Shown piece by piece: positions 20,000-51,932 of a DNA stretch of 64,000 nucleotides. The DNA is from Clytia hemisphaerica (Eukaryota > Cnidaria > Hydrozoa > Leptothecata > Clytiidae), in assembly GCA_902728285.1 (NCBI GenBank), contig CACVBU010000854.1:215954-279953 (forward strand), in the 5' to 3' direction. The stretch's first letter is position 1, and each line of letters opens with the position of its first letter. The notes below the pieces were generated by a model. That model was not told the DNA's origin and ran no database searches. It was given only the letters and a program-made list of their open reading frames with translations. Position numbers and translations under genes: made by a program.

Positions 20000-21698
20000 A
20001 AAGAACAGAATGACACCCTTTCCCAAACCGTTATGATGTCACATATAAATAATTTTCATTCTTTTTTATCTCTGAAAATTGCGCTATATTAGCCCCTTTT
20101 GTTTTTGCGAAAATATTTGGCTTGTTGTCCATCGAGTTCATCACTATACACTAATTAAATTTTTGAGCAGAGATCAAAAGCAACCAACGGCTAGAAAACA
20201 CAAACTGCTTAAGAAGCGTGCGGAGGAAATTCGGGCTCCTGGAAAAAAAATGCATGTGTTTTATACACATAGATCGTGAAAAAAAAATTATTTTGTTCTG
20301 TTTTTGTTTCCGAAAATGTTCTTACTGGAAAAATATACGTGTTCTTTTTCATGATTGCTCCTGGATTTTGCTAACACAACAGAGTTTTCTTGGAAAGTTT
20401 GATGTGTTCTTTTCTCAAACGCTCCTGGATTTTCCGAACAGATATTTTACAGAAATTGATGCCTGCCCTTTTGATAAAATTAACATCCTCCTAGATTTTC
20501 ATGTCTGTTTGCTAAGAAAAATGTTCATGGATTTTCTCTCTAAAATTCTTTCTCCGGGAAAATAGTACATACATTTGAGAAATATCCTTCGTTGGCTGCT
20601 CTTGAGAGATAGAGGATTCACTCAAAGTTAAAGAGAACAAAAGGTTTCAACGCAATCGTGCAATTGATACTCCAAGATACTCACGATTCGGTTTCCAGGC
20701 TAACCGACAAGCAAGCTCTTCTTTTTTTCTTTTCAAACAATTTTCTCTTCTCAGCAGTTACAAAGTTTACACCGTTGGAAAGAAATTACCAAGGAGAATT
20801 ATCTAATAGTTTTGAAACTTTTATAAAATGGAAAGTTGAAGATGTATCACTCTTTGATTTTACTGATGGACGTGATAACAACATTACAACGTAAATTAAA
20901 AGAAAACAGAGAATGTCCTGTTTTTCATAGGCGGATCCCAGTGCCTTTGGTGTGGGCTAGTTTGGATACGAGTTTGAAAGACTTTTTTAGACTGGCGTAA
21001 AAATCATGATATTACATTTTTTGCCCCCGCAACGAGCGTAGCGAGTGAGGAGGCCTTCATAGCTTCACGCAAGGATATTGGACAGGAATCTCGCATCTTT
21101 GCGCGCGCGCGTTTGTTCGTATTTCTGTTCCGGCCAATTAAGTGTTCCGCAAAAATATGGCGGTAAATTATACAGCGGTAAATGTTATACACATTTTCAT
21201 ATTACGTTATATGCTATTACCATTATCATATATTGCATTTCATTAGTTTTGATTTAGGATTGAAAAGCTGAAGCGAGTGTTATAAATGCAAATTATAGAA
21301 AAAGTATATAACATCACCATAACAAGGATTACAATATTACTTTTGCAAATCAAAACAAACAAAATGGCAGACTGGTTATGATGATGAGCTGATTCGATTC
21401 ATTGAATGGAAAAAGTGTTTTGTATGTCTAATTTTGTTTCTTGTCTTTAAAACTGAATAAATACTGTAATTTAGTCAGAAGTTCATTTCAGCAATGATTT
21501 CAATTCTTTTTCGGGAATCTTTAAAGAAATTTGCTCAAGTTTTCAAATGTACATTTTGTTGATATTTTTGTTCAAACTTATCAAACTGTAATTTATATTG
21601 TCTGTTATTTTATTAATAACTACCTTTATTGTTTATAGAGCTTCTTAAGCTTTAAAGACCATTATATGGTCGTAACTCGGGAATATCTTTCTTAACTC
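20000..21698. other. Gene-poor spacer with weak exon-like frames
   Basis: Positions 20235-20530 hold four or five degenerate copies of a unit with GCTCCTGGATTTTSC and TGTTCTTTT, which alone create the long frame there. Positions 20756-20894 follow a good acceptor (TTCTCTTCTCAG) and read as a 45-residue open frame ending at a stop, but no partner exon or homology is visible. Positions 21030-21060 carry a GAGCGTAGCGAGTGAGG block like the one at 19473 in the Helitron. Confidence 0.4.
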
Positions 21699-21699
21699 G

Positions 21700-22395
21700 G
21701 TAAAAACAAGATACCGGCAAAGTACAAAAAAGTAGAATGTAGCATATGAATCCAAAATTGAATGTGAATCGATCTAAACAAACTTTTTTTTTTGGTCTTC
21801 AAAATAGATTTACCTCACTTAGAGTGTTTTCACTGTTTGTTCAGTGTGGTAAATCTATTTGGAAAACCTGAAAAAAGTTTGTATAGGCGCATACATTCAA
21901 CTTTTTCAGTTGTGATAGCCTACGTAATAACTTGCGCTCCAGTAGTTTGGTGAAATAGCTCCAATTCTGGCTTTCCAAGTTAGGAGGGACCTTCCCGAAG
22001 ACATTTAACGGTGGTTAGACTAGGCACACAGACAGTCATACAGAAACGGTAAAACAAGATACCGGCAAAGTACAAAAAAGTAGAATGTAGCATATGAATC
22101 CAAAATTGAATGTGAATCGATCTAAACAAACTTTTTTTTTTGGTCTTCAAAATAGATTTACCTCACTTAGAGTGTTTTCACTGTTTGTTCAGTGTGGTAA
22201 ATCTATTTGGAAAACCTGAAAAAAGTTTGTATAGGCGCATACATTCAACTTTTTCAGTTGTGATAGCCTACGTAATAACTTGCGCTCCAGTAGTTTGGTG
22301 AAATAGCTCCAATTCTGGCTTTCCAAGTTAGGAGGGACCTTCCCGAAGACATTTAACGGTGGTTAGACTAGGCACACAGACAGTCATACAGAAAC
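21700..22395 (+). repeat. Near-perfect 348-bp tandem duplication
   Basis: Copy 1 is about 21700-22047 and copy 2 is 22048-22395, offset by exactly 348 bp. I see only a one-base difference at the start junction. Each copy carries an internal inverted repeat (AATAGATTTACC and its complement) and ends with CACACAGACAGTCATACAG. The identity points to a very recent duplication or an assembly artefact. Confidence 0.9.
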
Positions 22396-22615
22396 ACCAT
22401 AAAGTGAAAGTATATAGCTATAAACTCAAAAAGTCTAGCTTCCTGAAGGCACATCTCTTCATTGTCTGCGCTGCGATCATCTTAATGGATTCAATCAGCT
22501 TTTAGTTTGGAGAAAAGATTGCATCATGAAAAAGTACTATGCACTTTAAAAAAAATTAGGCGCATTTCAACTTTTCTCGACTGTACGTCTGAATGGACCA
22601 CAATGGCATACCTTA

Positions 22616-22970
22616 TTGGTATATATTTTCGCGTGTTACAAATTTTCGCGAATCGCGAAATTTTTTCGAAAAAACGTGTTTCGCGTGTATTAAATTTCGC
22701 GATTACCGACTTCTGGAAAATTTTCGCGTGTATTAAATTTCGCGATTGGTGGGAATATAAAACAAGAAAAAGACTGATTTTTCTTGAAACACAACGTTTT
22801 TGATGTAAAAATACTAACAAAATACTAAGAAAATTTTTTTCGCGTGTATTTAATTTCGCGATTTTGCAATTTTGAAAAATTTAAACAGTATTAAATTTCG
22901 CGAAAATTGACCAAAAAACTCGCGAAATTAAGTACCCGCGAAAATTTGTAACACGCGAAAATATATACCA
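22616..22970. mobile_element. 355-bp MITE with TTCGCG-rich arms
   Basis: Left arm TTGGTATATATTTTCGCGTG continuing to GTTACAAATTTTCGCG; the right arm is its complement. TTA flanks both ends (22613-22615, 22971-22973). Internal TTCGCGTGTATTAAATTTCGCG units recur three times. The element lies 80 bp upstream of the helicase-gene TATA box. Two opposing frames over it (22507-22820) are by-products of the palindromic arms. Confidence 0.75.
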
Positions 22971-23049
22971 TTAAGCCATTTGATTGTTTTCTATTCCCTG
23001 CGCGAATAACACAATATATTATAAAAGGAACCATTTTTTGTTGAAACGA

Positions 23050-23057
23050 TATAAAAG
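23050..23057 (+). promoter_or_regulatory. TATA box of the SF3 helicase gene
   Basis: TATAAAAG, 81 bp upstream of the ATG at 23138. A start site about 30 bp downstream would leave a 5' leader of about 55 bases containing a short GAGAGA/GTGTGT run. Confidence 0.6.
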
Positions 23058-23137
23058 GATGCGAAAGTTTTGTGTTCTCATTCCTAAACACACATTAAGA
23101 GAGAGAAAGAGTGTGTGTGTATGCGATATTCTACAAC

Positions 23138-26100
23138 ATGACTGGAAAACCTGGCCATGCCCTGCAGAACAAAAAGGTGATTGCTGCTCTGGAAAGCAAC
23201 ATTATTTTGAACGTAAGTGAAATTATGTTCCTGATAGTTTTTTGTCAGTTTGCAAGTTTGCAAACATTCTCTTTTTTCTTCATACTACTATCTACTATTT
23301 ACACCAAAGACAATTTTATATTTCAATTTAGTTTGTAAAATATTTAATTTTTGATCCACCAAGTTAGTTTTGCTAATTTTGCAAAAATTCAAAAGGAAAG
23401 CCATTCATAATATTTCTTTCGCTGTTTTGACTCGTAGTTTATTCAGTTGAAAATGTTTTTTAATATAAACCAAATATTATATGTTTCAGATTCCAAGAAC
23501 ATGCCCAACAATCAGTTTGCGCGTTTTGTCAAAGGAGGGGGAAGCACTGGCACTACGTCAAGAAATGGACGTGAAGATTGCACAAATCGCTGGTGTCGAA
23601 TTTGTAATTTCATGCCTGACAGGCACGGAAAACAATAAAAAGTCAAAGAAAAATTTCGATAAACAACAAGAGAAAGATGAGGAACAAAGCACAAAGAAAG
23701 GAGTGGCTTATTTTGTTGTGGTGGCGACCGGCGGTGTTGAAGATGGAATCAGACAGGTGATTGCGTCCGCTGGTTTCCAGTCTCAAATTTCTTTTATATG
23801 TCCACGTGGTGACAAACGGGAATCAACATCAAACTTAAGCAAAATAACTAAAATCCCCAATGGGTAAAGGTAGTTAAAGGAACTACAACACCCCTAAACA
23901 CCAACATCACAGATCGTGGTGACAAACGGGAATCAACAGACCGTTCTTTGAAAATGTTGGCTTCAGTAATGAAGGTATGTTTATTTGCAAAATTAATTTC
24001 ACACAGAACGTAAAACAGGTGATATTTCCAAAACTAAAACAAAAGTAGCCATAAATCCTGAGATGACAGACTACGAAACTTTGAAACATTGATAATTTCG
24101 TTCAAACTAGATTGAACTTGGTAGCCCTGTGTAGCCCTGATGTAGCCATGATGTAGCCCTGGACTTTTAGCTTGGAAAAGGTTGCGTAGCCCTGTAGCCC
24201 TGGATATTTAGATATGTTTTGGCTTTTTTTCACTGAACTTGGTAGCCCTGTGTAGCCCTAATATAGCCCTGATGTAGCCCTGGACTTTTAGCTTGGAAAA
24301 GGTTGGGTAGCCCTGTAGCCCTGGACTTTTAGCTTGGAAAAGGTTGGGTAGCCCTGTAGCCCTGGATATTTAGATATATTTTGGCTTTTTTTCACTGAAC
24401 TTGGTAGCCCTGTGTAGCCCTAATATAGCCCTGATGTAGCCCTGGACTTTTAGCTTGGAAAAGGTTGGGTAGCCCTGTAGCCTTGGATATTTAGATATGT
24501 TTTGGCTTATTTTCTACTGGGACGATAACGAAAGTACTCGATATTTTCAACTGAAAGACTTTGAAACATTGATAATTTCGTTCAAACTAGATTGAACTTG
24601 GTAGCCCTGTGTAGCCCTGATGTAGCCATGATGTAGCCCTGGACTTTTTGCTTGGAAAAGGTTGGGTAGCCCTGTAGCCCTGGATATTTAGATATGTTTT
24701 GACTTTTTTTCACTGAACTTGGTAGCCCTGTGTAGCCCTGATGTAGCCTTGATGTAGCCCTGGACTTTTAGCTTGGAAAAGGTTTGGGAGCCCTGTAGCC
24801 CTGGAAATTTCGATATGTATAGACTTTTTTTCTACTGGGACGATAACGAAAGTACTCGATATTTTCAACTGAAAGACTTTGAAACATTGATAATTTCGTT
24901 CAAACTAGATTGAACTTGGTAGCCCTGTGTAGCCCTGATGTAGCCATGATGTAGCCCTGGACTTTTAGCTTGGAAAAGGTTGGGTAGCCCTGTAGCCCTG
25001 GATATTTAGATATGTTTTGGCTTATTTTCTACTGGGACGATAACGAAAGTACTCGATATTTTTAACTGGAAGACTTTGAAACATTGATAATTTCGTTCAA
25101 ACTAGATTGAACTTGGTAGCCCTGTGTAGCCCTGATGTAGCCATGAAGTAGCCCTGGACTTTTTGCTTGAAAAAGGTTGAGTAGCCCTGTAGCCCTGGAT
25201 ATTTAGATATGTTTTGACTTTTTTTCATTGAACTTGGTAGCCCTGTGTAGCCCTGATGTAGCCATGATGTAGCCCTGGACTTTTAGCTTGGAAAAGGTTG
25301 GGTAGCCCTGTAGCCCTGGAAATTTCGATATGTATAGAATTTTTTTCTACTGGGACGATAACGAAAGTACTCGATATTTTCAACTGAAAGACTTTAAAAC
25401 ATTGATATAACTGTTCAAACTAGATTGAACTTGGTAGCCCTGTGAAGCCCTGGTGTAGCCATGATGTAGCCCTGGACTTTTAGCTTGGATAAGGTTAGGT
25501 AGCCCTGTAGCCCTGGATATTTAGATATGTTTTGAATTTTTTTCACTGAACTTGGTAGCCCTGTGTAGCCCTGATGTAGCCATGATGTAGCCCTGGACTT
25601 TTAGCTTGGATAAGGTTGGGGAGCCCTGTAGCCCTGGATATTTAGATATGTTTTCACTTATTTTCTACTGGGGCAAAAACGGAAGTAGTTTTGAATATTG
25701 TGACGTAATATTAAATATTGTTGAAGATGTGAAAATCCAAGGCTACAGGGCTACATAAGCTCCTACAACCTAAAATGCCAAGGCTACGACAGGGCTATGA
25801 CAGGGCTACCCAAGGCTACCTGTTTATTTCATTATCTTTATATTTTTTTCAAAGTCAAGACAGCCTTTGCTCTGAAAATTTAGGATTTTAGCATTTGGGG
25901 AACTTTTGGATTTGTGTTACTTCCACTGGAAATAAACATTAAGTTAGATTAAGTTTTTAACAGAAAGACCTTGAAACATAGATAATATCTTATTTAAACT
26001 GAATTAAACTTAGTAGCCCTGTGTAGCCCTAATATACCCCTGATGTAGCCCTGGACTTTTAGCTTGGAAAAGGTTAGGTAGCCCTGTAGCCCTGGAAATT

Positions 26101-29100
26101 TAGATATGTTTGACCTTTTTCTAGTGGGTCGAAAACGAAAGTAGTCTTGAATATTGTGACGTAATACTAAATATTGTTGAAGATGTGAAAATCCAAGGCT
26201 ACAGGGCTACATAAGCTCCATCGACCTAAAAAGCCAAGGCTACGACAGGGCTATGACAGGGCTACCCAAGGCTACCCGTTAATTTGACTAGTCTCATGTT
26301 TTTCTGAGCTCAATGGAACTATACAACTTTTGGCACTTTTCTAGTGGGGCGAAAACGAAAATAGTCTTAAAAATTGTGACGTAATACTAAATAATGTTGA
26401 AGATGTGAAAATCCAAGGCTACAGGGCTACATAAGCTCCTTTGACCTAAAAAGCCAAGGCTACGATTGGGCTATGACAGGGCTACACAAGGCTACCCGTT
26501 AATTTCATTAGTCTCATGTTTTTCTGAGTTCAATGGCGAACTATACAACTTTTGGCACTTTTCTACTAGGGTGAAAACGGAAGTAGTCTTGAATATTGTG
26601 ACGTAATACTAAATATTGTTGAAGATGTGAAAATCCAAGGCGACAGGGCTACATAAGCTCCTTCAACCTAAAATGCCAAGGCTACGACAGGGCTATGACA
26701 GGGCTACCCAAGGCTACCTGTTTATTTCATTATCCTTATATTTTTTCAAAGTCAAGACAGCCTTTGCTCTGAAAATTTAGGATTTTAGCATTTGGGGAAA
26801 TTTTGGATTTGTGTTACTTCCCCTGGAAATAAACATTAAGTAACCTTAAGTTTTTAACAGAAAGACCTTGAAACATTGATAATATCTTATTTAAACTGAA
26901 TTAAACTTAGTAGCCCTGTGTAGCCCTAATATAGCCCTGATGTAGCCCTGGACTTTTAGCTTGGAAAAGGTTAGGTAGCCCTGTAGCCCTGGAAATTTAG
27001 ATATGTTTGACCTTTTTCTAGTGGGTCGAAAACAAAAGTAGTCTTGAATATTGTGACGTAATACTAAATATTGTTGAAGATGTGAAAATCCAAGGCTACA
27101 GGGCTACATAAGCTCCATCGACCTAAAAAGCCAAGGCTACGACAAGGCTATGACAGGGCTACCCAAGGCTACCCGTTAATTTCATTAGTCTTATGTTTTT
27201 CTGAGTTCAATGGAACTATACAACTTTTGGCACTTTTCTAGTGGGTCGAAAACGAAAATAGTCTTAAAAATTGTGACGTAATACTAAATATTGTTGAAGA
27301 TGTGAAAATCCAAGGCTACAGGGCTACATAAGCTCCTTTGACCTAAAAAGCCAAGGCTACGATTGGGCTATGACAGGGCTACACAAGGCTACCCGTTAAT
27401 TTCATTAGTCTTATGTTTTTCTGAGTTCAATGGAGCTATACAACTTTTGACACTTTTTTACTGGGGCGAAAACGAAAGTAGTCTTAAATATTGTGACGTA
27501 ATACTAAATATTGTTGAAGATGTGAAAATCCAAGGCTACAGGGCTACATAACCTCCTTCGACCTAAAAAGCCAAGGCTACGATTGGGCTATGACAGGGCT
27601 ACACAAGGCTACCCTGTTATGTTGATAGTCTCAAGACTTATTTTTTCTTACGTCTGTTTTTTTACCATTTGCATTTGTCTTTAGGATCACAAAACAACTT
27701 TTGGCACATCGCTTGCGAGCGAGTTGGGCCAGCGGACGGCTAACATTATCACTTACTGCCAAAAGTATTTTGTGTTAGTACGAAATTGGGCAGAAAGATT
27801 ACGGACTGCTGGTGTCCATTTTGACGTCATTTGTGGAGCACCAAACTCCTGGGAAGAAATCGTCGACAATTGGGTGCCAGGAACACAAATTGGCCGTGCA
27901 TTGGAGTCGTTGAGAGAAGCTATGAAGTCTGGTGATCATGCAGCTTTCCGAGGAAGAGTGTACCGGAAGTATGAAAAGGGTAATTTCATACTTGACATTT
28001 TTATCAATGACCTTTCCAACGCTTTTCTATACACCTAAGTCATTATCTAGATATTAATACTCATTTCACTCCTTTTCTTTCAGCAAACTTTGCCTATCAC
28101 AAAATAGGTAGCGCAAAGACTTATCTTAATTCCATCATTGTCATTCCACAAATCCAAGATGCGATCATGCAACACAAGGCGGCATTACTAGGGATTCTGT
28201 CCGACCCTGGATGTAATGTAAGACATATTATTTCTATACACGTCGATACCGATTCTATATAGTCGATTTTTCTAGCTTTGCTAGCTAACAAACAAACAAA
28301 CTTGGCTTTGTTTTGGCTTCTTCAATAAACAGAAGAAAAGGAAAAAATCAAAACGTAATAGTCTGCATTAAAATACAAAGAACTCGATTTTCTTGGAATA
28401 GATTTTAATTGTTCAGGAAAATACTCCAAATTTACGATTCTCGTGAAAATGAGCTCTCACCAAACAATATGAATATGATGATATATGAAATATTTTATTT
28501 CTGAAATATTTTAATTGCATTAAACCGTGTTTTATTTTCAGGCAATCAGTCAAATTGTATTCGATCCCGATATAATCGAAATAAGCGGTGGACTGTATTA
28601 CAAGCTATCAAGCAGATCTCTCACGTCATGCCCCTACAAACCAACAGATAAAGGACGCATTTCGCCGCGTATATTTAAAGAAGTACCGGACAAAGTGGAT
28701 AAAACTGGTGGTGTTTTTGCCGACGCTGTGAAAAACAGTTTTCCAGATATTAAAGAACAAATGGAATTCATTGTCAAATTTTACCAGTGCTTGCTTGCAT
28801 TTCAGCTACCACAAAAGACAACAAAGCTGGCACTGGTTGGTCCAAAAAATTCAGGAAAAACCTCGTTCGTCAACGTTGTCAGAGGATTGACCCATCCTGA
28901 ATTTATCGCCTCTTTGTCAAAGGAAAAGATCTTTGGCATGTCTATGATCAACAGTGACACTCAATTCATCTTTATCGACGAGTTGAGTTCCGAAATCATG
29001 GCTGGTGATCAAGCCAAAATCCTTCTTCAAGGTGGTCCAATCACTGTGCCAAGAAAGCATGAAGAACCTGAAATCGTTGACAACCAAGCAGGTGAGCCAA

Positions 29101-31235
29101 GAAAGTTATTTTCAAGAAAAGCTTTATGTGCAGTAAACAGTGACAGTTCTAGTACATATTTTGCTTTTAACGCATCTGACTTTTTGTTTGTAAAAAGACT
29201 TGTCCTTTCTGTTTTAAGGAATTTTCGTCACATGCAACGCGAAACCAAATTATGGCGATGATCAGAGGAACGTGGAAGACAGACTCAATTACATGGACAC
29301 GGTACCATTGGCAGTGACGGACACAAGCGCTCCAGAGTGGATCTTGGATCACAGCTTCGAAATCTTGCTGTGGATGGTTGATCAGATGAAGAAATACAAT
29401 TGTTACGTGGCAAGAAAAGAACTGTTTTTCGTCCGTGATGTCACCGACTACGTTCAACCAAAGGTAAAATTCAAAGTTAACATTTGTGTTAGTTGGTAAC
29501 AGATACTCGGCGGATTTATATTCTAAGGCATAGAAACAAATTTTTCATTCGTAATTCTATTTTTTTAGATCACACTTTGTCTGCCACAAGGAGATTTGAT
29601 GAAACTGGCAGGGGTACGTTGTGAAGCTCAACAGCAAAACGCTCAAAATCATGGTAAATATATTATATTTCTAATTCCCAGTAGCAATAATCGAACAATG
29701 GTTTTTCAAGATTTCACCAAAAGGAACCGTCTCATAGTTGTGCTCAATTATTTTTCAGATTGTAATACAAGTTCTTCGACGAACTCGAGCAGCGAACGGG
29801 TGACAAATGATCGACCAGGATGTTCGAAGTGGCACAACGATTCACCTTCGAGTGGCTCTGAAGGTGCCATTAGTAAGTTTTTTCACTCATAATCTTTTGA
29901 AATCTAGTGTAATTTATTGGCACTGCATCCATGTGCTGACTAAGTATCAAATCCAACAATGAACCTTTTAATTCGAATTTAATACATTTTTTTCTTTTAT
30001 TCAGCTAAACGTTTTGAGAGAATCTCGAAAAGAAGGCTCACAAAGAAGAGACGTATAGAAGAGAGTAGCGAGGATGAATCGGAAGAAGGTAATTTACAAA
30101 ATATACTACAGATATACTTTATATCTAGATATATCATTATATATTTTTATATTATATCATTATAATGATATCATATATCAATTTACTCTCACAAACACCA
30201 CAATCATAACATGTGATTTGAGGCTTATGGATAATCTAAAACTACCTAAACTTGTGGCTAACATGGCCTGAACATAAAAAAATCATCTGAATCTAAAATG
30301 GATACCGAGACAAATTTCTGATGCTAAAGTGTGCCATTCTTTTTATTGATTTAGAACAACCACCAAAACGCCAAAAGCCGTTAGCAGAATCAATAGCGGA
30401 TAAAGAACGTAAAGGTAAATTATATTATATACATGGTGTTACAATCGGATTTTAGGTACATGAAAACAACAAAATATTTGAATTTCAATTAGTTGTGTCC
30501 AATACCTCATTTGGTCTGGCTGATTTTTTACTAACCTTTTTCCCTGCATTTTTAGATCATGAAAGTTTAATGAAAGATGTCAACGAGACGATGAACTACC
30601 TCTTGACACAATTGGACTATTTTTCTTCGTCTGGTGAGTCAAATATTGTCAACATAAACAACGTAGTTTAAAAAAAAAGAAACCAAGCTTCGCGCATCGG
30701 CTTGTATGCTTAGAAAACTGAATCTGAAAGGGAATTAGAAACAGGAAGGGAAGAATCTGTTTATTCTTCTTTCTTATATTTTTATCTTAATAATGACATA
30801 ATATACATATATAAAGAACTTTTTCAACATTTAGACGGTGAGCAATCGATCGATTTTGAGGCGACCTTCATAAAAACAAGCCGTGCTCATTTTGTTCATA
30901 AGGCCGAGAAGAATGATAAAACCATCTTCAGATACGTGGACATAAATACACCAAAATACTGGGCAGAGATGACTCGGCTCATCGTCAAGTGGTTTGACAG
31001 AGGAACAAGATTGTCATTTGCGCATTACAACACATTCGATGACAATTTCATGAGGCATGGTGGTTTGGCGAGGAGAGGGGCTGTTCCGACTATTGATGCT
31101 TGGTTTTTGGTGTCTGGAAGGGTTCGGAACGGCTTTGACATCCTTGGCTATTTGGACACATTCCCTTGGATCGAAAAGGAGTTAGAGTCGATCCGTCGAC
31201 ACCTCGACATCATTGTAAAGAGAAAATTGATTTAA
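23138..31235 (+). CDS. SF3 helicase gene of candidate mobile element (12 exons, exon 2 disrupted)
   Basis: Exons by splice sites and phase: 23138-23212, 23490-23974, 27685-27979, 28084-28217, 28542-29091, 29219-29463, 29569-29653, 29759-29872, 30005-30088, 30355-30414, 30556-30633, 30835-31235. The core is a superfamily-3 helicase: Walker A GPKNSGKTS (28839-28865), Walker B FIFIDEL (28965-28985), motif C GIFVTCN (split across the 29091/29219 junction) and a downstream Arg in EDRLNYMDTVPL as candidate arginine finger. SF3 enzymes unwind DNA for replication of parvoviruses, papillomaviruses, virophages and related elements. No HUH nickase motif is seen in the N-terminal half, which I do not recognise. 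Small exons 8-11, all joined in phase 1, encode a Ser-rich linker and basic KKRR clusters like nuclear signals. The C-terminal exon is unknown. About 830 codons if the 110-bp duplication in exon 2 is ignored; as written, exon 2 is frameshifted. It converges on the recombinase gene. Confidence 0.8.
23805..23938 (+). repeat. 24-bp direct repeat bounding a frame-breaking 110-bp duplication
   Basis: A 24-bp block starting CGTGGTGACAAACGGGAATC occurs at 23805-23828 and 23915-23938. Joining the flanks across the two copies keeps one open frame (RGDKREST then DRSLKMLASVMK) up to a GTATGT donor at 23975, in the phase exon 3 needs. With the extra 110 bp (not a multiple of 3) the frame meets a TAA at about 23863. 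No GT-AG pair I tested removes it cleanly. Confidence 0.75.
24105..27625. repeat. GTAGCCCTG satellite array in helicase intron 2
   Basis: The 3.7-kb intron 2 is filled by a compound satellite. In 24105-25670 the core GTAGCCCTG reads forward in units of about 110-290 bp with CTGGACTTTTAGCTTGG spacers. From 25735 most copies are inverted (CAAGGCTACAGGGCTACAT) in units of about 220 bp with GTGACGTAATACTAAATATT spacers. Forward blocks return at 26010-26100 and 26910-26995, and a superblock of about 890 bp is repeated (25.7 and 26.6 kb). The same unit recurs at 32.04-32.29 kb. Confidence 0.9.
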
Positions 31236-31238
31236 ATC

Positions 31239-31247
31239 TTAATAAAA
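31239..31247 (+). terminator. Poly(A) signal of helicase gene
   Basis: AATAAA at about 31240-31245, directly after the stop codon at 31233-31235. The very short 3' UTR fits a compact element. Confidence 0.5.
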
Positions 31248-31525
31248 CCTGTCTATTTTATTTTTTGGCATACCTTTCTTGAATAGTTGATCGAAAATAT
31301 TCTGAAAAAACTTCTCTCCTTTTATCAATATTCCTGAATTCCTGAAATTTTGTTTTAATTTACAAAACACAAAATTTATAACAAAACAGTAATTTGCTAC
31401 CTACGAAACAGAGATTTACATTACATAGTACAAATCAAAGTGAATAAAATTTAGGGTAAAAGTTAAAAAATTAAAACAACAACAGTTATGCATCCAACAT
31501 CCAACAAACAGCAAATATCCATATT

Positions 31526-31789
31526 TTAAGTGTTTTTAATTTTGGCCTTCTCTCCAGTCTTTTCATCACAACAGGAAGCTTTCTTTTTCTTCTTTTTTGA
31601 AACTTCTGCGTCGCTCCCGTCTGCGTCGCTCAGCAGCCAAGCTGGAGTGGTTCGTTTGAATCTGACCTTGTAGATTTTTTTTTTGCCCATGTGTTTGACA
31701 ATTTCGTCCACAGTCTTTAAATTTTCTGGTATCTCATTGTCTGTTTCGGACGTAACATAGTCTTCGGAAACCACCACAACGTCACTCAT
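31526..31789 (-). CDS. Small charged protein between helicase and recombinase genes
   Basis: An 87-residue single-exon frame. The N-terminal 25 residues are acidic (VVVVSEDYVTSETDNE), the middle is basic with an IYKVRFKRTTPAWLL stretch, and the C-terminus has a KKKKKK run, one CC pair and more Lys. A TATA box on the same strand (31843-31837) lies about 50 bp upstream of the ATG, supporting a real transcript. I do not recognise a family; the basic tail suggests nucleic-acid binding or nuclear location, which is inference. It is transcribed in the same direction as the recombinase and lies in the gap between two convergent genes. Confidence 0.5.
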   Translation of the reverse strand: MSDVVVVSEDYVTSETDNEIPENLKTVDEIVKHMGKKKIYKVRFKRTTPAWLLSDADGSDAEVSKKKKKKASCCDEKTGEKAKIKNT

Positions 31790-31836
31790 GATGTATGTGA
31801 CGAGAATGAACTGATTTTATATTCAAACGTTTCCCA

Positions 31837-31843
31837 TTTTATA
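31837..31843 (-). promoter_or_regulatory. TATA box of the small minus-strand gene
   Basis: CTATAAAATGGG on the minus strand, about 50 bp upstream of the ATG at 31789. Confidence 0.5.
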
Positions 31844-32041
31844 GATTTTTGGTAAGGTAGACCCCAGTCCTTTATTGTAATTGAACTTTGATCGACGACG
31901 TGTACAAATTTCAATGGTTTAAATCTGCTGACTATGCTGACACCTTTAACCCTAAGAAACAATCTTTCTTTCTTGAAAATAGAAGAACATGCTTACAATA
32001 AATATCATTTGTGCATGTTTTGAAAATTGATAGACAACAAA

Positions 32042-32290
32042 GCTCTTTGAAATTGGATAGCCCTGAGTAGCCCTGTTGTAGCCCTGTTGTAGCCCTGAAA
32101 TTTTAGCTTGGCAAATGTTGGGTAGCCCTGTAGCCCTGGTAATTTAGGATTTGTGACATTTTTGACGAAACCGAAAGTAGTCTTACATTTTCAACTGAAA
32201 GGCTTGGAAACATTGATAATCTCATTTAAACTAAATTGAACTTAGAAGCCCTATAATGTAGCCCTGATGTAGCCCTGGAGTTTTAGTTTT
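32042..32290 (+). repeat. GTAGCCCTG satellite copy outside the helicase gene
   Basis: One to two units of the intron-2 satellite, including TAGCCCTGTTGTAGCCCTG, the TTTTAGCTTGG spacer and the ACTGAAAGGCTTGGAAACAT block. It lies 100 bp past the 3' end of the recombinase gene. Confidence 0.85.
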
Positions 32291-32395
32291 AGTTTTTAAG
32301 GATTAATCGAATTTGTTCTTTTCTTTGACATATTTTTTTATAAATAAAAAATATTAGATTAAATTTGATCAAATTTTACAAATCTTACAAAAATA

Positions 32396-34480
32396 TCAAC
32401 TGTCATCATCAAATAGTTTTCTAAAACAGGCACTGTCAGATCTAACCCTTAACGAGTCTCTAGTTCTTGATGGATGAAATTGAAAACTTAAGTCCTTTAA
32501 AATCAGGGCCCAGGATTTACGTCCGTACTTTTGGATACCCTGTTTTAAATAACGATCCTCTTCGTTAGTAAATTTCACATTCTTTGTTTGTCTCTTAGTA
32601 ACTTGTTGTTCAGCAACTTCTCTTTTGACGACAACATTATCTTTTGGTACATCTAAAACATGACGAGAGCTGTTTGCTGACATTGCAATATCTTCACCCT
32701 CCACTGTGTGTGTGATTGTCAGGTCTGTAATTTCATCAAGTGATTCTCTTATTGGCTGATACGGATCTCTTTCGGTTTGATTTGTCGTCTGATTGATGTG
32801 AGAACTTGAACCACGAAAACTAGGTTCTCCTCCCTCTATTATACGCTGACTCTGGCTCAGAACCTCGTTGTCGAATGAGCAAGAGATGTTATTGAACATG
32901 CTTACCAGGTTTTTGTTAACGTCCGTTCGCGCTTCCTTTGTCATCTTGTCCATGCATTTCTTTCCTTCGACTGCAACGATTCTGGATTGCGTCTTCTTGT
33001 AATGTACCTTTGCAACTGTCGAACTGTGCTTTTGATCCTCAGTAATAAAATGTTGCTCTTCTAGATTGAGTCGTTCGCTGCTTTCCGTTTCGATTATTTG
33101 CCTGTACCGTGTTGGATTGATGTGTTTGCCAATTGCTTGATGAACGAGAATTGTCATAGCAGAAGTCAGTGACTGAAATTGAGTGCCGTTTGTTGAGAGC
33201 AGTAAGAAATCACATTGCGGATTTAAACGAGGTCTTATGTGTTCCAAATACAAGTCGATTATTTCAATTGTGTCGTCCGATAAGATTAAAGTGTCAAAAA
33301 TGTACCTGAAAATATAAAACAAAGAAAATGTTTTTTCTGTTTTTCATCATATTCAACACAAATACATATTTGCCAACTTTTACTTTCATGATGATGATAT
33401 GTAATGATCTATAATAGCTTTGATTAAGAAAAGTTTGATTCGGTGTATTAATTATAATGGATCTATTTTGATTAAATATTGATACCTTGATGCTGTTTTA
33501 AACTCTCTCTGGTCTACAAATCCACCATTCCCTCTTGCTTTGTTTACCATTCCGACGGTAAGAAATTGATAAGTCATAGGTCTTGAACATTTCACTCTCA
33601 GGAACAATAAAGTGGTAATGAATCGAATGCAAAATACCAGTTCGCCTTTTGTTAAAAGTCTAGCTTCTTCACTATTGGCAGACTTTTGGATGATCGTTTT
33701 GAACTGTCCCATGTGATGAGGTATGACTTGCTCCATGTCTTCTAACGTAGCCCAACTATTTCTAGCAATGAGAGTTTCCAAATCGAGGTTACGATTACAA
33801 TCAAGGTTCTTTCTTTTACGAAGGTTTTCAGTTGCTCTCCTTAGATACACCTCTACAACAGTAAAGCAACGTAGAGTATTATCAGATACACCGTTTGCCT
33901 TTCTAAAATCGATAAAGTCACTAAGAGCTTTCACGTAGTTCAATGCACCTGAAGGACCAACCTTCCAATTAGTCTCTAAAGTTTTCAAAAATGAAATAAA
34001 AATTGAAGCTGATGACAGACAGCAATCAACAAATTCGTTTGTCAGCTCAATGTCATTTTCATTGTTTCCCATGGCCTGCATAAAATATTTCATTGATCGT
34101 TTTCCAATTTGCCGGGACTCTCTGTTGCTTTTTCCTCCTCCACAGGGTGTTCCAAGCCAGAGCAAAAAATCGTATCCTATACCTTTATCGAGTGAAAAAG
34201 ACGGCTTACCGGCAGTCCAAGCTCGTTTTGTAACTCTAAATGTGTCAACCATGTCTTCACGTTTAACCTCGGGTTGTTCATCAAAATAGTAATACCATGG
34301 GTGCTTCACGTTTATGTGTTTTCTCAATCCGCGGCAACTTTTGAAATCTCCATGTAAACAAAGTTTTATTGGACAAGTGTAAAAGTTTTGCCCATTTGGA
34401 CGTAATTTTAGCGTTCGTTTTCCATGAGCGGCACCAACTAAAGTCTTCCAGTTGACCTGCAGTCGCCTTGAGCGACGCAT
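32396..34480 (-). CDS. Crypton-like tyrosine recombinase with C-terminal Myb/telobox-like domain
   Basis: Two exons, 34480-33486 and 33305-32396, join in phase (AG|G) to give about 634 residues. The N-terminus is basic with a C2H2-like motif (CPIKLC ... RGLRKHINVKHPWYYYF, about 34370-34290). The middle is helical, like a core-binding domain. The C-terminal catalytic signature fits tyrosine recombinases: Arg in SRPMTYQFL (33583-33581), Lys in REFKTAS at the exon end, Arg in TRYRQII (near 33105), His in KHSS (33028-33026) and the Tyr nucleophile in HYKK (33001-32999). These enzymes cut and rejoin DNA through a 3'-phosphotyrosine; in Cryptons they move circular intermediates. The last 60 residues are a SANT/Myb domain (FTNEEDRYLKQGIQKYGRKSW) followed by SLRVRSDSACFRKL, resembling telomere-repeat-binding Myb domains. 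All catalytic residues are present and the frame is intact. Order of Arg/Lys assignments is by eye. Confidence 0.75.
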
Positions 34481-34505
34481 CGTGAATGAAAGGAGCAAAG
34501 TTTTC

Positions 34506-34515
34506 CCTTTTTATG
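34506..34515 (-). promoter_or_regulatory. TATA-like box upstream of recombinase gene
   Basis: CATAAAAAGG on the minus strand, about 25-35 bp upstream of the ATG at 34480. It is non-consensus at the first base, and the short distance would give almost no leader, so an ATG further in is possible. Confidence 0.35.
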
Positions 34516-36905
34516 TAATTTACAAATTTAACTCTGTTAGGGGGTTTGAAATATAAAATTTCCATTGATTTAGAAAAGGGAGAAGCATCTCTCAAACCCC
34601 CTTTAAAAAAATGCCCAATGAGAAACGTGCGCGCGTAGCAGATACCACCAATGAGGTACGATTGGAAATTAAAATTCCCACGGTAGCGAACAATTTGAGT
34701 TAATGCAAAGATCAAATTGATCTTAATTAAAAGAAAATGATACTCGTTTTTGTAACCAACACACAAAAAGAACGAGAGAACACTAAATTCCTACACACTA
34801 TGAACACTTTATTCCCTAGACAAGGAACTATTCGTACAAGCACAAGAAAAGAACGATAAATTCATTTGCACTATGTACACATTTTATTCCCTAAACGGTG
34901 AACAATTTATTCAGTAAAAAAATCTGAACAGTTTGTTCGATATTAAAAGGAACAAAGGAACGTTTTCTATACCTTTGAAGTTATAAAGAATAAACTATTC
35001 TTTAGAGAACATTTTATTCTTTCAAAGAAAACTAAAAAGAACAGAAAGTTCCTTTGGGAACAAAAAGTTCATTGAATAGATGTTCCTTGGGAGTTCCCTA
35101 AATACAGTGTTTGACCAAAGATCAACTACATTAAGGTATCTTTATTTTTCTTTTGACCAACAACATAAAAGATTTTGCTTGAGAAGTACAATCAAAGCGT
35201 AGGCGAGTGGAGTCCGGGCCTTAGCTAGGATTGGTTTCTATTTCGCCCTATTTAAGATGGCGCAGAACTTTTTGATAAATTTTATCCGCAGTATCCTCTT
35301 GACTATTGTTTATTAGGCAAAGTAGCAATAGAGAATCAATCAATCAATCAATCAGTAATTAAATCAATCAATAATCAAATCAATTAATTATTCCTGATTA
35401 TTTTTTATGTTTCAATCTTTAAAGCATTAAAAGCTTTATCTCGTCAACCTGTTCCGACAAGCTCGTTTCTTGAACCCGTCTTACATTTAAAATCTATTTC
35501 ATGTAAATTGGAAGTTTGTTTTGCTACCATGTACAAACCACTCTCAAGGAAGATACTCTCGGGTATCTAATAAACGTACACAAACACATAAACATAAACA
35601 AACACCTACTTGAAAACTTCGATTCTAAAGATTGACGTCAATTTTTTTTATATGAAGACGCTGTATTGAATTTTTTTAAATAAACGTGGAATATTGTTTT
35701 GATAGTTATTTCTAATCATAGTCACAAGTCTCATAGTCTCTTCTTGTGACTATGTTCTAATCAACTGATGAATGCGAAAGCAAGAAACTTTAAGTATTGA
35801 AAAGAAATACAACGTTTCTTAATCTTTATGTAATAAACGTACACGTACGTTTATCAATTTTAACAAAAATTTTCCTCAATTTCAAGTGCCTACTTTTGTT
35901 TCTAATGATAAATATCCATCTTTGACTTTTTAGGTTTGTTCTACTCGTCAAAAGAAAGCAAATTACCCAATATTTACCCCCTAACCTCATTAAAAAGATC
36001 CTTCAATTAGGTTTGCATGCCTCCATTTTCGACCCTGTACGTTTATTCGCTACTGTACGTTTATTAGGTACTCGAGTAGTCTAATTACTCTGATATGGTT
36101 TCCACATGATAGCAAAAATGAATGCCAATTTAAGTGGAATAAACTTTAGCTTGCAAAACATAAGAGTCATTTCTTTTTAATTAGATTTTTTCATGTCTTC
36201 GTCGAAACCTTAATTATAACTAGGCCATCGTTTTTATTTATTTAGATGGAGTGTTATTGTTATTATTTTCAGGAAAAAAGAAAATCTTTTATTTCTTCGT
36301 TTAACCAAACGTGTAGTTACTTACTATTTTTTTGTCCCCATGCATTTCTTATAATCTTGCAATTGACATTGTTATGATTATACAATTTATTATAGAATTT
36401 TTTAAATATTATATTGCTGCGGTGGCATGTTAGTGTAAGCTATGTACTAGTTTAGAATATTTTATTTGAAAACAGAGGTTCAAATAATATTCTAGAAAAA
36501 TGTCATGCCTCATGAATTTTGAAAATTTTTGAGAGAAGAAAGAATTTTTTTTTATTCATCCTGAGGTTTAAGTCTGTGGGGTTCATCATTACTTTAGTTC
36601 ATGAAAGTTCATAATTTTAATAAACGTTGTCTTGTTCAAACCTTTACATATAATGGTAAAAAAGAATTAAAATTGCTTATATATATAGAGAGTTGAATGT
36701 TAGACAGTTTGTATTCCATTCTTTATTTAATTATTTCAATAATTTTAAATTAAAGAAGTAATGAAAATAATAACTACATCAAAAAATAAATTCACTTTTC
36801 TAACCAAACAAAAACAGTAATTCTGTTAGAGCAACATCATTCTCAGCAATTTTTTTGACTTTTGAGCGTTTATAAAGCGGGTCCTAGATGTTGTACTTTA
36901 GGCGT

Positions 36906-38770: not shown

Positions 38771-41700
38771 CTATTTCTCCCCTTCGGCTGCCGTATCATT
38801 GGGCTTAGTTTGGTCAGTGGTTCCGAGACTAGCATAAGAGGGTGGTTGTTCTGTTATAACTGTACTCTCATCACCCAAAACAATAGGGTTCTTAGTAGGG
38901 GATGCTGCTACGGGCTCCCCTACTATAACTCCATCACCGTTCGTTGTAGAGGTTACATCCTCTGACGATTTTGTAATATCATTATAATCTGGGGTATCTT
39001 CCTCTTCCACGACATGTTTGTACTTCCCGCAACAAAAGTTACAACAAAAGCAAAAACAACAACAACAGAAGTAACAACCGGTTATTATTCCGCAAAATAT
39101 CATAAGTCCTTTACACCAGCCGCTACTCAGCATGAAATATGTCTTGACGTTCTGAAAAGAAAATGGAGGGAAATTGTTAAAATGCATGATTGGCAGAATT
39201 CTATATGCACAACTAAATTTTATGCATTCAAAGACAAATATTTTTCAATTAGTGTTTTTATTCAAATATTCTGAATAACTTAAAGGCACCAAATCTTGCT
39301 AATTTTTTTATTTTTCTAGGGTTTCAGCTGAACCATGGAAACTAAAGCCCAAAAAGCAAAACTTCATCAAATAAGCAATTTGTCTAAAATGACCAAAACT
39401 GCAAAAAACAGTGAGCATTTTATTTTTTAGTGTAAGTTCTTTCCATCACTTCAAGTGGACTAGTCCAATCCATGAATTTTTATAGGCAAACTTACCTCCT
39501 CGCCAAATTGTTCTGCAATATACAATCCCATAGATCCATAGCGATCATAAATTTCTTTTTTACTTGGGTCAGATAAAATAGTATGTGCATGGTTGATTTG
39601 TTTAAACTACAAAAAAAAAGATAGAAAATGCTGCTAGATGAAAAAGTCCAAAAATTTATTCTCATAGAGAGGAATAAAATCCATGATTTCTATCAGGCCC
39701 AATACAACAAGTGACACTTATGATAGACCTACCTGGTTATGCATTTAACACATTATAATTGATATCTATGTGTGCGTGACCATTAAACAATCATTCAGAA
39801 CACAAATAGTGACGATCTATTAAAATTAGTCGTTTGTTTCTTATAAAAAAAGCGTTTAGAAACCAAAATTTCATGCTCTTAAAATATTCTTTCAAATTCA
39901 AGACTTTATGAGCAAAAAAAAAACATCTATCTTATCAAAAAAATGAGTAATTTGGCTAAGAACATTGATGTATGCTTATTAATAGTGATTCTTATACGTA
40001 TAAACATGCGTTTTTTAGGCCAACAAATTTTTTTTGAAAAAATCTGCTTGAGCCATCTTTTACCTATGATGGTACCCTACTTTCATGCAAAAAATCAGAA
40101 AAAGTTAATGATCCAATTTTTCAAACAAAAAAAACCTGTTTTTTAGCCGTTTTTTGGCCCAAATTTGCTAAAAAAAATTTTTTTCGACAGTCGGGCTCCG
40201 TCACATTCGAGGGTTTACAGTTATGCATCTTTGTGCAAAAAATCATAAAGAATCAAAGAGCCAGTCTCGAGAAAAGCTAATATCTAAGTAATTGATACTG
40301 TGCTTATAAATAAATATCGATTGTTGCCAGTTTCTCTATAAAAACACGCCAAGTAACCAAAATTTCATGTCTAAACACACATATTCTTCAAAAGTAAGCC
40401 TTCATGAGCAAAAAAACATCTATCTTATAAAACAAGTGATACTTTGATGGACCTACCTGGATTATGCATTTAACACGTTTATAATTGATATCTACGTGAC
40501 GTGACCATTAAACAATCATTCAGAACACAAATAGTGACGATCTATTAAAATTAGTCGTTTGTTTCTTATAAAAAACGTTTAGAAACCAAAATTTCATGCT
40601 CTTGAAATGTTCTTTCATATTCAAGACTTCGTGAGCAAAAAAACATCTCCAAAAAATTGAGTAATTTGGCTGAGAACATTGATGTATGTTTATTAATAGT
40701 GATTCTTATTGATAAAGATGCTTTTTTGAGCTGAAAAATTCATTTTTTACAAAAGTCTGCTTGAGCCATCTACTTTCATACAAAAAATCAGAAAAAAACA
40801 ATGGTCCAATATTTCACTAAGTCCAAAAAACCCTTTTATGGCCGTTTTTTTAGCTGAAATATACCCCAAAATCTTTTTCTCCAAAAATCGGGCTCCGTCA
40901 CATTTGAGGGTTTATAATTTGCATCTTTATGCAAAAAATCGTAGAAAATGAAAGAGCCAATCAATCTAAACCTAGGTAATTGATAATGTGCTTATAAAAA
41001 AATATCGAATTTGGCCAGTTTTTCTATAAAACATGCCAAAAACCAAAATTTCATGTCTAAACACTCGTGAGAAAAGAAAAAACATCTATCTCATAAAAAA
41101 ATTGAGTATTTGACTAAGAACATTGATGTATGCTTATTAATAGTGATTCTTATAGATAAACATGCGTTTTTGAGCCAACAATTTTTTTTGCAAAAATCTG
41201 CTTAAGCCGTCTTTTACCTATGATGGTACCCTACTTTTATGCAGAAAATTAGAAAAATTAATGATCCAATTTTTCACAAAGTCCAAAAACCTGTTTTTAG
41301 CCGTTTTTGGCCCAAATTTGCCCAAAAACATTTTTTTCGAAAATAGGGTTCTGTCACATTCAAGGGTTTATAGTTATGCATCTTTGTGTAAAAAATCATA
41401 AAGAATGAAAGAGCCAATCTCGAGAAAAGCCAATACCTAAGTAATTGATAATGTGCTTATAAAAAAATATCGAATTTGGCCAGTTTTTCTATAAAAAAAC
41501 GCCAAGCAACCCAAATTCCTGTCTAAACAACACATACTCTTCAAAGTAAGCCCTCTTGAGCAGAAAAAACATCTATCTCATAAAAAAATTGAGTAATTTG
41601 ACTAAGAACATCGATGTATGCTTATTAATAGTGATTCTTATAGATAAACATGCTTTTTTGAGCCAACAAAATTTTTTACAAAAATCTGCTTGAGCCATCT

Positions 41701-43779
41701 TATACCTATGATGGTACCCTACTTTTATGCAGAAAATTAGAAAAAATTAATGATCCAATTTTCACAAAGTCCCAAAAAACCTGTTTTTTAGCCGTTTTTT
41801 GGCCCAAATTTGCCCAAAACATTTTTTTTCGAAAATAGGGTTCTGTCACATTCAAGGTTTATAGTTATGCATCTTTTGTAAAAAATCATAAAGAATGAAA
41901 GAGCCAATCTCGAGAAAAGCCAATACCTAAGTAATTGATAATGTGCTTATAAAAAAATATCGAATTTGGCCAGTTTTCTATAAAAAAACGCCAAGCAAAC
42001 CCAAATTTCCTGTCTAAACACACAACTCTTCAAAAGTAAGCCCTCTTGAGCAGAAAAAAACATCTATCTCATAAAAAAAATTGAGTAATTTGACTAAGAA
42101 CATCGATGTATGCTTATTAATAGTGATTCTTATAGATAAACATGCGTTTTTTGAGCCAACAAAATTTTTTTACAAAAATCTGCTTGAGCCATCTTATACC
42201 TATGATGGTACCCTACTTTCGTGCAAAAATCAGAAAAAATTAATGATCCAATTTTTCACAAAGTCCAAAAAACCTGTTTTTTAGCCGTTTTTTGGCCCAA
42301 ATTTGCACAAAAACATTTTTTTCGAAAATCGGGTTCTGTCACATTCAAGGGTTTATAGTTATGCATCTTTGTGTAAAAAATCATAAAGAATGAAAGAGTC
42401 AATTTCGAGAAAAGCCAATACCTAAGTAATTGATAATGTGCTTATAAAAAAATATCGAATTTGGCCAGTTTTTCTATAAAAACACGCCAAGCAACCCAAA
42501 TTTCCTGTCTAAACACACATATTCTTCAAAAGTAAGCCCTCTTGAGAAGAAAAAACATCTATCTCATAAAAAAAATTGAGTAATTTGACTAAGAACATCG
42601 ATGTATGCTTATTAATAGTGATTCTTATAGATAAACATGCGTTTTTTGAGCCAACAAAAATTTTTTTGCAAAAATCTGCTTGAGCCATCTTATACCTATG
42701 ATGGTACCCTACTTTCGTGCAAAAAATCAGAAAAAATTAATGATCCAATTTTTCACAAAGTCCAAAAAACCCGTTTTTTAGCCGTTTTTTGGCCCAAATT
42801 TGCCCCCAAAATTTTTTTTTCGAAAATCGGGCTCCGTCACATTTTGGGCATTGCCATTTTGCATCATTGTGCAAAAAATCAGAAAAAACTAATGAGCCAA
42901 TCTCGAGAAAAGCTGGTAACTAACGGACGGACGGACAAAGGTTTAAATTTATAGGACCTCCACCGGGGTAGGTCCAAAAATTGAGTAATTTGATTAAGAA
43001 CATTGATGTATGCTTATTAATAGTGATTCTTATAGATAAACATGCGTTTTTTGAGCCAAAAATTTTTTTTGCAAAAATCTGCTTGTGCCCATCTTTTACC
43101 TATGATGGTACCCTACTTTCATGAAAAAAATCAGAAAAAATTAATGATCCAATTTTTCACAAAGTCCAAAAAACCCGTTTTTTAGCCGTTTTTTGGCCCA
43201 AATTTGACCCAATATTTTTTTTTTTTGAGAATCGGGCTCCGTCACATTCGAGGGTTTATAGTTACACATCTTTGTGCAAAAAATCAGAAAAAACTAATGA
43301 GCCAATCTCGAGAAAAGCTGGTAACGAACGAACATACAGAGGTGAATTTATAGAACCTCCACCGGGGTAGGTCCAAAAACTGGTATATTACTAATAGAGT
43401 GGCTTTTAATGAAGATCTTTCCCTCTTGTAACCAAATATAATCGCTTCTGTCACGTCTGATTTCTTTCATAAATATAAGACCCTTCCTTTGGTATTGATC
43501 ATTATGCTTTGCTAAAATAAGGTGAAACAACAAATTGAACTTACTTTTTCTGTGGCTTCAGGGTTGTTTGGATTTTTGTCTGGATGATATTTTAGGGCCA
43601 TCTGAAAATAGTAGAAAAATGTAGGTTTAATAAGTAATTTCATGTCAAGTTTTGACATGAGATGCTGAATTCTATTAAAAAGATATATTTTCCTTTATGC
43701 AGTACTTACCTTACGATAAGCCTTTTTGATCTCTTCAGGGGTAGCATCTTTAGCAAGACCAAGGGTTTCATACAAATTT
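38771..43779 (-). CDS. DNAJC5: Cysteine-string protein / DNAJC5 orthologue (3' four exons)
   Basis: Exons 43779-43710, 43601-43545, 39606-39496 and 39151-38771 join in consistent phase. They encode most of a J domain ([20 protein letters not shown]), its HPD motif in YHPDKNPNN, the linker ending [11 protein letters not shown], and then the hallmark string [20 protein letters not shown], with a Pro/Thr-rich acidic tail to the stop. Cysteine-string proteins are palmitoylated vesicle co-chaperones that recruit Hsc70 to SNARE proteins. HPD stimulates the Hsc70 ATPase and the cysteine string anchors the protein to membrane. Length and domain order match animal DNAJC5. The first coding exon (start of the J domain; incoming phase 1) was not found between 43.8 and 50 kb. 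The 3.9-kb third intron is mostly satellite. The overlapping plus-strand frame at 39014-39274 is a shadow. Confidence 0.95.
39880..43375 (+). repeat. Satellite of about 490-bp units in a DNAJC5 intron
   Basis: Seven units beginning GAGTAATTTGRCTAAGAACAT start near 39943, 40658, 41103, 41590, 42083, 42577 and 42976. Central spacings are 487-494 bp; outer units are longer or shorter. Each holds GTATGCTTATTAATAGTGAT, a CCTATGATGGTACCCTAC block, TTTTTTAGCCGTTTTTTGGC and a GGGYTCYGTCACATT block. The last two units end in a CCTCCACCGGGGTAGGTCC motif, preceded in one by GGACGGACGGAC. Frames at 39943, 42081 and 42637 are satellite translations. Confidence 0.9.
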
Positions 43780-51372: not shown

Positions 51373-51932
51373 ATCATCAAAAATAATAATTTATTCCAAA
51401 ATTATCGAAACGTTTCGAGAAGACATAAAACATCCCAGGAAACGTTCATCTAATGTCTATAAAGCTTCATTGTATCATTGCCCAAAGCGTTAACGTTAGC
51501 GTTAAATGAAGAAGTTCGAACAACGTTCTATGCTAGATTGGTAAAACCGATAACGATTGGTCAAAGTTTAATTAAACGCTCCAAATGTTTTCTTCTCGAG
51601 AAGATGAGTGCAACAAAAACATCTACCTATAAATATATACGTAGATAAACAATCAGTAAGAAATTCAACCGTAGCAAACCCAGTAAGTCAGAAAATGCGA
51701 AATCAAATTCAAGAATCAAAACAACATAGATTATCCACCTCCTCACGTGGGTGTGTAGGTGTATTAATTGAAACCAATTGAAAGAATGCATTAATAATAA
51801 CTACTCATTTTTTAAGAATATATTCTAATTAAAGCTAATTATCAGAAAATTCCCTAAGCATCAACACCCAAATTACGTTTAATTTATTGACGATCTTGAC
51901 GAATGACACCAAGACAAACAATGACTTCAATA

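Follow-up and report, generated by a model that had tools for sequence, protein, structure and literature searches.

Does an SF3 helicase gene that runs toward a tyrosine recombinase (YR) gene, as seen in one stretch of the Clytia hemisphaerica genome, belong with its neighbor to a single mobile element, or are the two there for some other reason? The stretch (C585:215954-279953 in a 417-Mb assembly) is 64 kb long and is called the window here. A sequence-only reading had marked out positions 23138..34480 as an element pairing a spliced SF3 helicase gene with an intact YR gene facing it on the other strand, and our analysis supports that interpretation. In our judgment, it is likely that the locus represents an autonomous family of DNA transposons in C. 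hemisphaerica, moving by site-specific recombination and carrying its own replication helicase. Exact ends with a short direct repeat, copies standing head to tail, dispersed copies that are nearly identical, recurrent pairing of the two genes, and a specific target are all observed.

The limits of the element were set by comparing the window with copies on two other contigs, C352 and C261. Both genes lie inside, as proposed, and the element itself is longer than first drawn, extending over 22969..35135 (12,167 bp with the direct repeats at both ends counted), as given by the limits of similarity to C352:707491-721369 and by the same right end in the C261 copy. Terminal inverted repeats are absent from the copies compared; both limits carry the 7-bp direct repeat CATTAAG, at the left host/element junction (22969..22975, plus strand) and at the right element/host junction (35129..35135, plus strand). 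Identity to the C352 copy is 99.2% across 8.1 kb, and that to the C261 copy is 98.6, 97.5, and 99.3% in three pieces, for a range of 97.5 to 99.3% among copies at other loci. At C261:244563-259727, roughly 15 kb of inserted DNA appears to interrupt the C261 copy at its left end.

Two copies on C352 are arranged head to tail, with a single CATTAAG in common between the right end of one and the left end of the next, which is what one would expect from insertion of a circle; directly upstream of this pair, and in the same order, lies a further element, diverged and carrying a YR of its own. Another head-to-tail junction, on C473, was placed by coordinates. The joined site reads ...CTACATTAAGCCATTTG... 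and carries ATCAA...TTGAT arms; it was seen only as a head-to-tail junction. Right ends were obtained at 16 loci from 22 matches, with 3 continuing into another left end and 13 into host DNA, and the 15 matches to the left end comprised 5 beside another element, 1 inner piece, and 9 host junctions. In all six insertions for which both sides could be compared (the window, C261, C308, C348, C412, and the C553 array), the repeat common to the two sides is 4 to 7 bp long and always contains TAAG.

Head-to-tail arrays would also be found in a non-mobile, tandemly expanded cluster of host genes made up of a domesticated helicase and recombinase, and the orientation of neighboring helicase loci (14 same-strand pairs within 30 kb and no opposite-strand pairs, with some possibly being fragments of one gene) is in keeping with such a cluster. 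Near-identical copies on different contigs, with exact ends and unrelated right flanks, are hard to explain in this way, as are the stops contained in many copies, and we regard a host gene cluster as the least probable of the explanations considered.

In the window, insertion was into the right end of a palindromic CGCGAAAATT repeat (22604..22975, with the left limit approximate and set by eye), whose inverted arms at 22612-22650 and 22937-22975 match at 97%. A host repeat of the CGCGAAAATT type adjoins all nine left host junctions seen, and a GCGAAAAT-type word stands immediately before each of them (seven exact and two with one mismatch); the junction at C816 has one extra base. On the other side, 11 of 13 right host flanks start with GTA, or 12 of 14 when C348 is added. 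The window target is a near palindrome, ATACC-ATTAA-GGTAT. The CGCGAAAATT-type repeat at C348 is palindromic, like that of the window, and the window repeat has the dyad site at both of its ends, in inverted orientation. A 20-base form of the host-repeat end has 175 exact matches in the genome, some of them as inverted pairs. Just outside the element, at 21698-22395, a 348-bp unit is tandemly duplicated at more than 99% identity.

The sequence-only reading would have been refuted if the two genes never occurred together elsewhere, or if the helicase were a conserved single-copy host gene; both checks turned out in favor of the reading, with the genes side by side at many unrelated loci. A helicase core exon used as the query matched at least 151 places (the best 150 of 261 candidates scored; the 150 listed, fragments included, were used), and two YR queries matched at least 120 and at least 85 places (the best 118 of 394 and the best 76 of 578 candidates scored). 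With at least 151 matches, the helicase gene forms a multicopy family that is dispersed in the genome, and a single-copy host helicase gene is ruled out. After merging, 77 of the 135 listed helicase loci have a YR on the opposite strand, in convergent orientation, within 12 kb downstream and at a median distance of 4.9 kb, compared to a chance expectation of 0.34. A same-strand YR lies downstream of one listed helicase locus, and upstream YRs number 14 on the opposite strand, which fit neighbors in arrays, and 1 on the same strand. Five regions chosen by the helicase alone (C38, C339, C292, C385, and C455, at 39 to 68% helicase identity) all have a convergent YR. In the C339 region, a rhodopsin-family receptor gene lies beyond the YR side (L038:81-1400, minus strand; 7tm_1, 61.2 vs 30.5 bits).

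One can ask whether a YR element and a helicase-bearing repeat, each a transposon in its own right, might have become neighbors once and then spread by segmental duplication. Such a history is very improbable, given that the genes remain convergent across helicase identities of 34 to 100% and with YRs of two deep clades. The presence of some copies on one contig and the discordant relatedness of YRs and helicases would suit it; duplication should also have copied the flanks, yet the 14 right host flanks seen differ past the first few bases.

The helicase gene (23138..31235, plus strand) is modeled with 13 exons and is supported by P0121, P0122, and DUF5906, and the spliced structure and motifs described earlier were all located. 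Its core exons, 28542-29091 and 29219-29463, carry Walker A (GPKNSGKT, 28839..28862), Walker B (QFIFIDE, 28962..28982), and SF3 motif C (GIFVTCN, 29218..29238), all on the plus strand. The model is identical to NCBI protein P0121 across all 471 residues searched. Pfam DUF5906 (cut-off, 27.6 bits) matches P0121 at 33.3 bits and its paralogue P0122 at 38.1 bits, both above the cut-off; the open reading frame (ORF) of a single window exon scores 23.7 bits, below it, and a DUF5906 profile search of the Clytia genome gave no match, though the exon query matches. The predicted SF3 assignment rests on the motifs together with the above-cut-off Pfam match. A GTAGCCCTG-type minisatellite, its later part mostly inverted, occupies 24113..27619 in a helicase intron, with a second block (32047..32286, plus strand) between the small ORF described below and the YR gene. 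In three copies, the helicase core lies 5.6, 7.3, and 11.8 kb from the left end, differences that probably come from the length of the minisatellite.

The YR gene (32396..34480, minus strand; exons 34480-33486 and 33305-32396) encodes 634 amino acids, as judged from the gene model, the NCBI match, and structure, and is intact, as first described. It is 100% identical to NCBI Clytia hemisphaerica protein P0001 over 584 of the 634 residues. Near the N terminus is a C2H2 zinc-finger pattern (34301..34375, minus strand), also present in 115 of the 120 homologues listed. The catalytic block (32999..33589, minus strand), recognized by motifs and fold, contains CSRPM (33575-33589), EFKTA (33491-33505), HINPTRYRQ (33098-33124), and QKHSSTVAKVHY (32999-33034), all on the minus strand; we presume the catalytic roles of these residues from what is known of YR biology. 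The protein has the fold and the R-K-R-H-Y catalytic residues of the tyrosine recombinase superfamily, and in a structure comparison its predicted structure matches tyrosine recombinases. At the C terminus is a TRF1/TRF2-like Myb/SANT domain (32441..32581, minus strand; PF00249, 27.0 vs 24.4 bits). The profile searches proposed for both proteins succeeded for the helicase, through DUF5906; for the recombinase, no YR family was matched in Pfam, PHROGs, or NCBIfam, nor was DUF3504 in Pfam. The assignment as a YR rests on motifs and the predicted fold.

Between the two genes, the small charged ORF noted earlier was confirmed (31526..31789, minus strand; 87 amino acids). A counterpart occupies the equivalent position in the C38 element (57 amino acids, 74% identity), and no relative was found in four other regions. 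Its reading frame is uninterrupted in the copies on C352 and C261, and its conservation is not above that of non-coding DNA. A Pfam scan between the ends took in all 12 stop-to-stop ORFs of at least 85 codons, two of them from the first start codon; these are parts of the helicase and YR genes, the small ORF, and frames that had no match. Consistent with the initial description, none of the 12 matched a capsid, polymerase, PolB, ATPase, protease, HUH nickase, DDE integrase, or reverse transcriptase (RT), a scan that shorter or spliced genes could escape; about 290 N-terminal helicase residues without an assigned fold also bear on these negatives.

This gene content is relevant to the possibility that the element, which would have lost or never had a capsid, is what remains of a Polinton-like virus (PLV) or virophage or is a satellite of one, with its mobility viral now or formerly. 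Those viruses are reported to carry YR integrases together with primase-helicases in one integrated element and, in contrast to the Clytia element, to have capsids (PMC12220804, PMC10120064). The above-cut-off DUF5906 match points the same way, as does a P4-type primase profile match to the helicase that lies far below cut-off. A viral origin seems unlikely to us, however, for an element of about 12 kb with introns in both the helicase and YR genes and no recognized capsid, ATPase, protease, or PolB among the 12 ORFs. Nor was any of these genes evident among the ORFs of the five other regions, partly scanned, and two peptide patterns for each protein found no relative of either in IMG/VR.

Comparisons among copies of the proposed transposon suggest that its genes are maintained. 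Substitution counts covered the helicase exons from 27685 on, the YR gene, the small ORF, and introns plus intergenic DNA. Relative to C352, the changes in these were 2/2046, 0/1905, 3/264, and 9/3269, respectively, too few to prove selection; relative to C261, they were 6/2046, 3/1904, 5/264, and 41/3269, with coding change about fivefold below non-coding. For YR exon 1 compared to the C348 family, the ratio of nonsynonymous to synonymous divergence (dN/dS) was 0.056, at a dS of 1.8 that is near saturation; for the helicase compared to C38, dS was saturated. Both the helicase and the YR are, by these comparisons, under purifying selection. The two have not always stayed with the same partner, it seems. 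Among 68 typed partnered loci (identity classes rather than trees, chosen for having a partner, with fragments and stop-bearing loci included), helicases of at least 50% identity go with YR clade A at 10 loci and clade B at 5, and those of at most 43% identity go with clade A at 21 and clade B at 32. The helicase of L037 (C38) is 68% identical to that of the window, and its YR comes from the other deep clade. Because helicase and YR identities are thus out of step, we suggest that the two halves have been exchanged between element families.

How might such an element move? We imagine that the YR, with its zinc finger, recombinase core, and TRF-like Myb domain, would pair both ends across the CATTAAG core and excise a circle with the joined site ATCAACTA-CATTAAG-CCATTTGAT. 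The SF3 helicase, possibly with an origin-binding N terminus, would then unwind this circle in the manner of papillomavirus E1, and host polymerases would copy it. Circles could be reinserted by the YR at TACC-ATTAA-GGTA-like sites in host-repeat ends, or against one end of a copy already in place, giving rise to arrays. Candidate recombinase or origin sites lie in the right subterminal region (34481..35135), identified by word count as rich in GAACA/GTTCC, with 18 such words compared to a mean of 1.9 across 300 single-base shuffles, none of which had more than 7. The junctions, seen in the light of other YR systems, lead us to propose the excision and insertion steps, and the replication step is drawn from general SF3 helicase biology. 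We infer excision as a circle from the head-to-tail junctions and the domain content; helicase-driven replication of the circle, which we would also infer, is the least proven step.

Several observations weigh against this interpretation. Neither an excised circle nor an empty allele was observed. Among the best candidates, fragments included, 58 of the 135 helicase loci stand without a listed partner, as do 96 of the 173 YR loci. The pair is known from one species only, since the helicase relatives among the protein-database matches listed were 3 proteins, all from Clytia (one such search covered the best 7,999 candidates), while those of the YR number 1,019. As for the predicted structures, the best Z score for the YR model is 11.7, under the value of about 13 below which the tool warns for helical models, and the mean pLDDT (predicted local distance difference test) for the helicase is 31, from an alignment of two sequences only. 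Finally, the helicase exon 2 region of the window (23490..23974, plus strand) is lengthened by a stretch of 108 bp that includes an in-frame stop, and the window copy may therefore not yield full-length helicase; copies without the stretch exist, and it is missing from both C352 copies.

That leaves the place of the element among known systems. P4-like satellites and prokaryotic integrative plasmids have a YR integrase and an SF3 replication protein in which a primase is fused to the helicase. By analogy, the Clytia element would work like an integrative plasmid, although the hosts of those systems are prokaryotic and sequence kinship is limited to a weak SF3-core match. The yeast 2-micron circle is not known to have a helicase gene and is a plasmid rather than a transposon. 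It does provide a eukaryotic circle with a YR, FLP, according to one account (PMC3212892). DIRS and Ngaro retrotransposons likewise have a YR in animals; the Clytia element differs in having no RT between its ends by Pfam in the 12 ORFs.

Cryptons, as the same account presents them, are YR DNA transposons without terminal inverted repeats, for which a circular intermediate was proposed; the first described, from fungi, have direct repeats of 4 or 6 bp, and those of animals are reported there to lack both a C-terminal domain and terminal repeats (PMC3212892). The Clytia element resembles Cryptons (CryptonA of animals) as a YR DNA transposon without RT, having short direct repeats and no terminal inverted repeats. 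It differs in adding an SF3 helicase, in some cases with a third ORF as well, and in a YR that has an N-terminal zinc-finger pattern, a C-terminal TRF-like Myb domain, and no DUF3504 match. Since the YR is not its only enzyme and our YR tree (58 proteins) had no Crypton outgroup, we have not filed it as a Crypton. It is quite possible, if short of probable, that these elements form an undescribed superfamily of capsid-less, self-replicating animal transposons, behaving as integrated plasmid-like circles with a helicase, a recombinase bearing a telomere-factor-like Myb domain, exchange of halves, and a target in palindromic-repeat ends. Among the open-access papers listed by our literature searches, a scope that leaves out Repbase and subscription papers, no title or start of an abstract reports an animal transposon with a YR and an SF3 helicase.

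Cryptons, the YR DNA transposons of animals, have been described with a recombinase alone, leaving unanswered how they multiply. A direct answer would come from a YR element that carries an SF3 helicase of its own, namely, that the excised circle replicates, and such an element would link transposons to plasmids and small DNA viruses. The exact ends, the defined joined site and target, and the near-identical copies, in what is a laboratory jellyfish, make excision, replication, and targeting testable.

The rest of the window contains other repeats and gene fragments. A perfect AGTC tetranucleotide array of 398 copies occupies 51932-53524, and a tandem array with units of about 495 and 405 bp lies at 41074-43379. 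Judged by eye, ORFs at 527-2439 (minus strand) and 12372-13658 (plus strand) resemble pieces of long interspersed nuclear element (LINE) reverse transcriptase, and those at 58646-58966 and 59298-59621 (minus strand) resemble TIR-domain exons.

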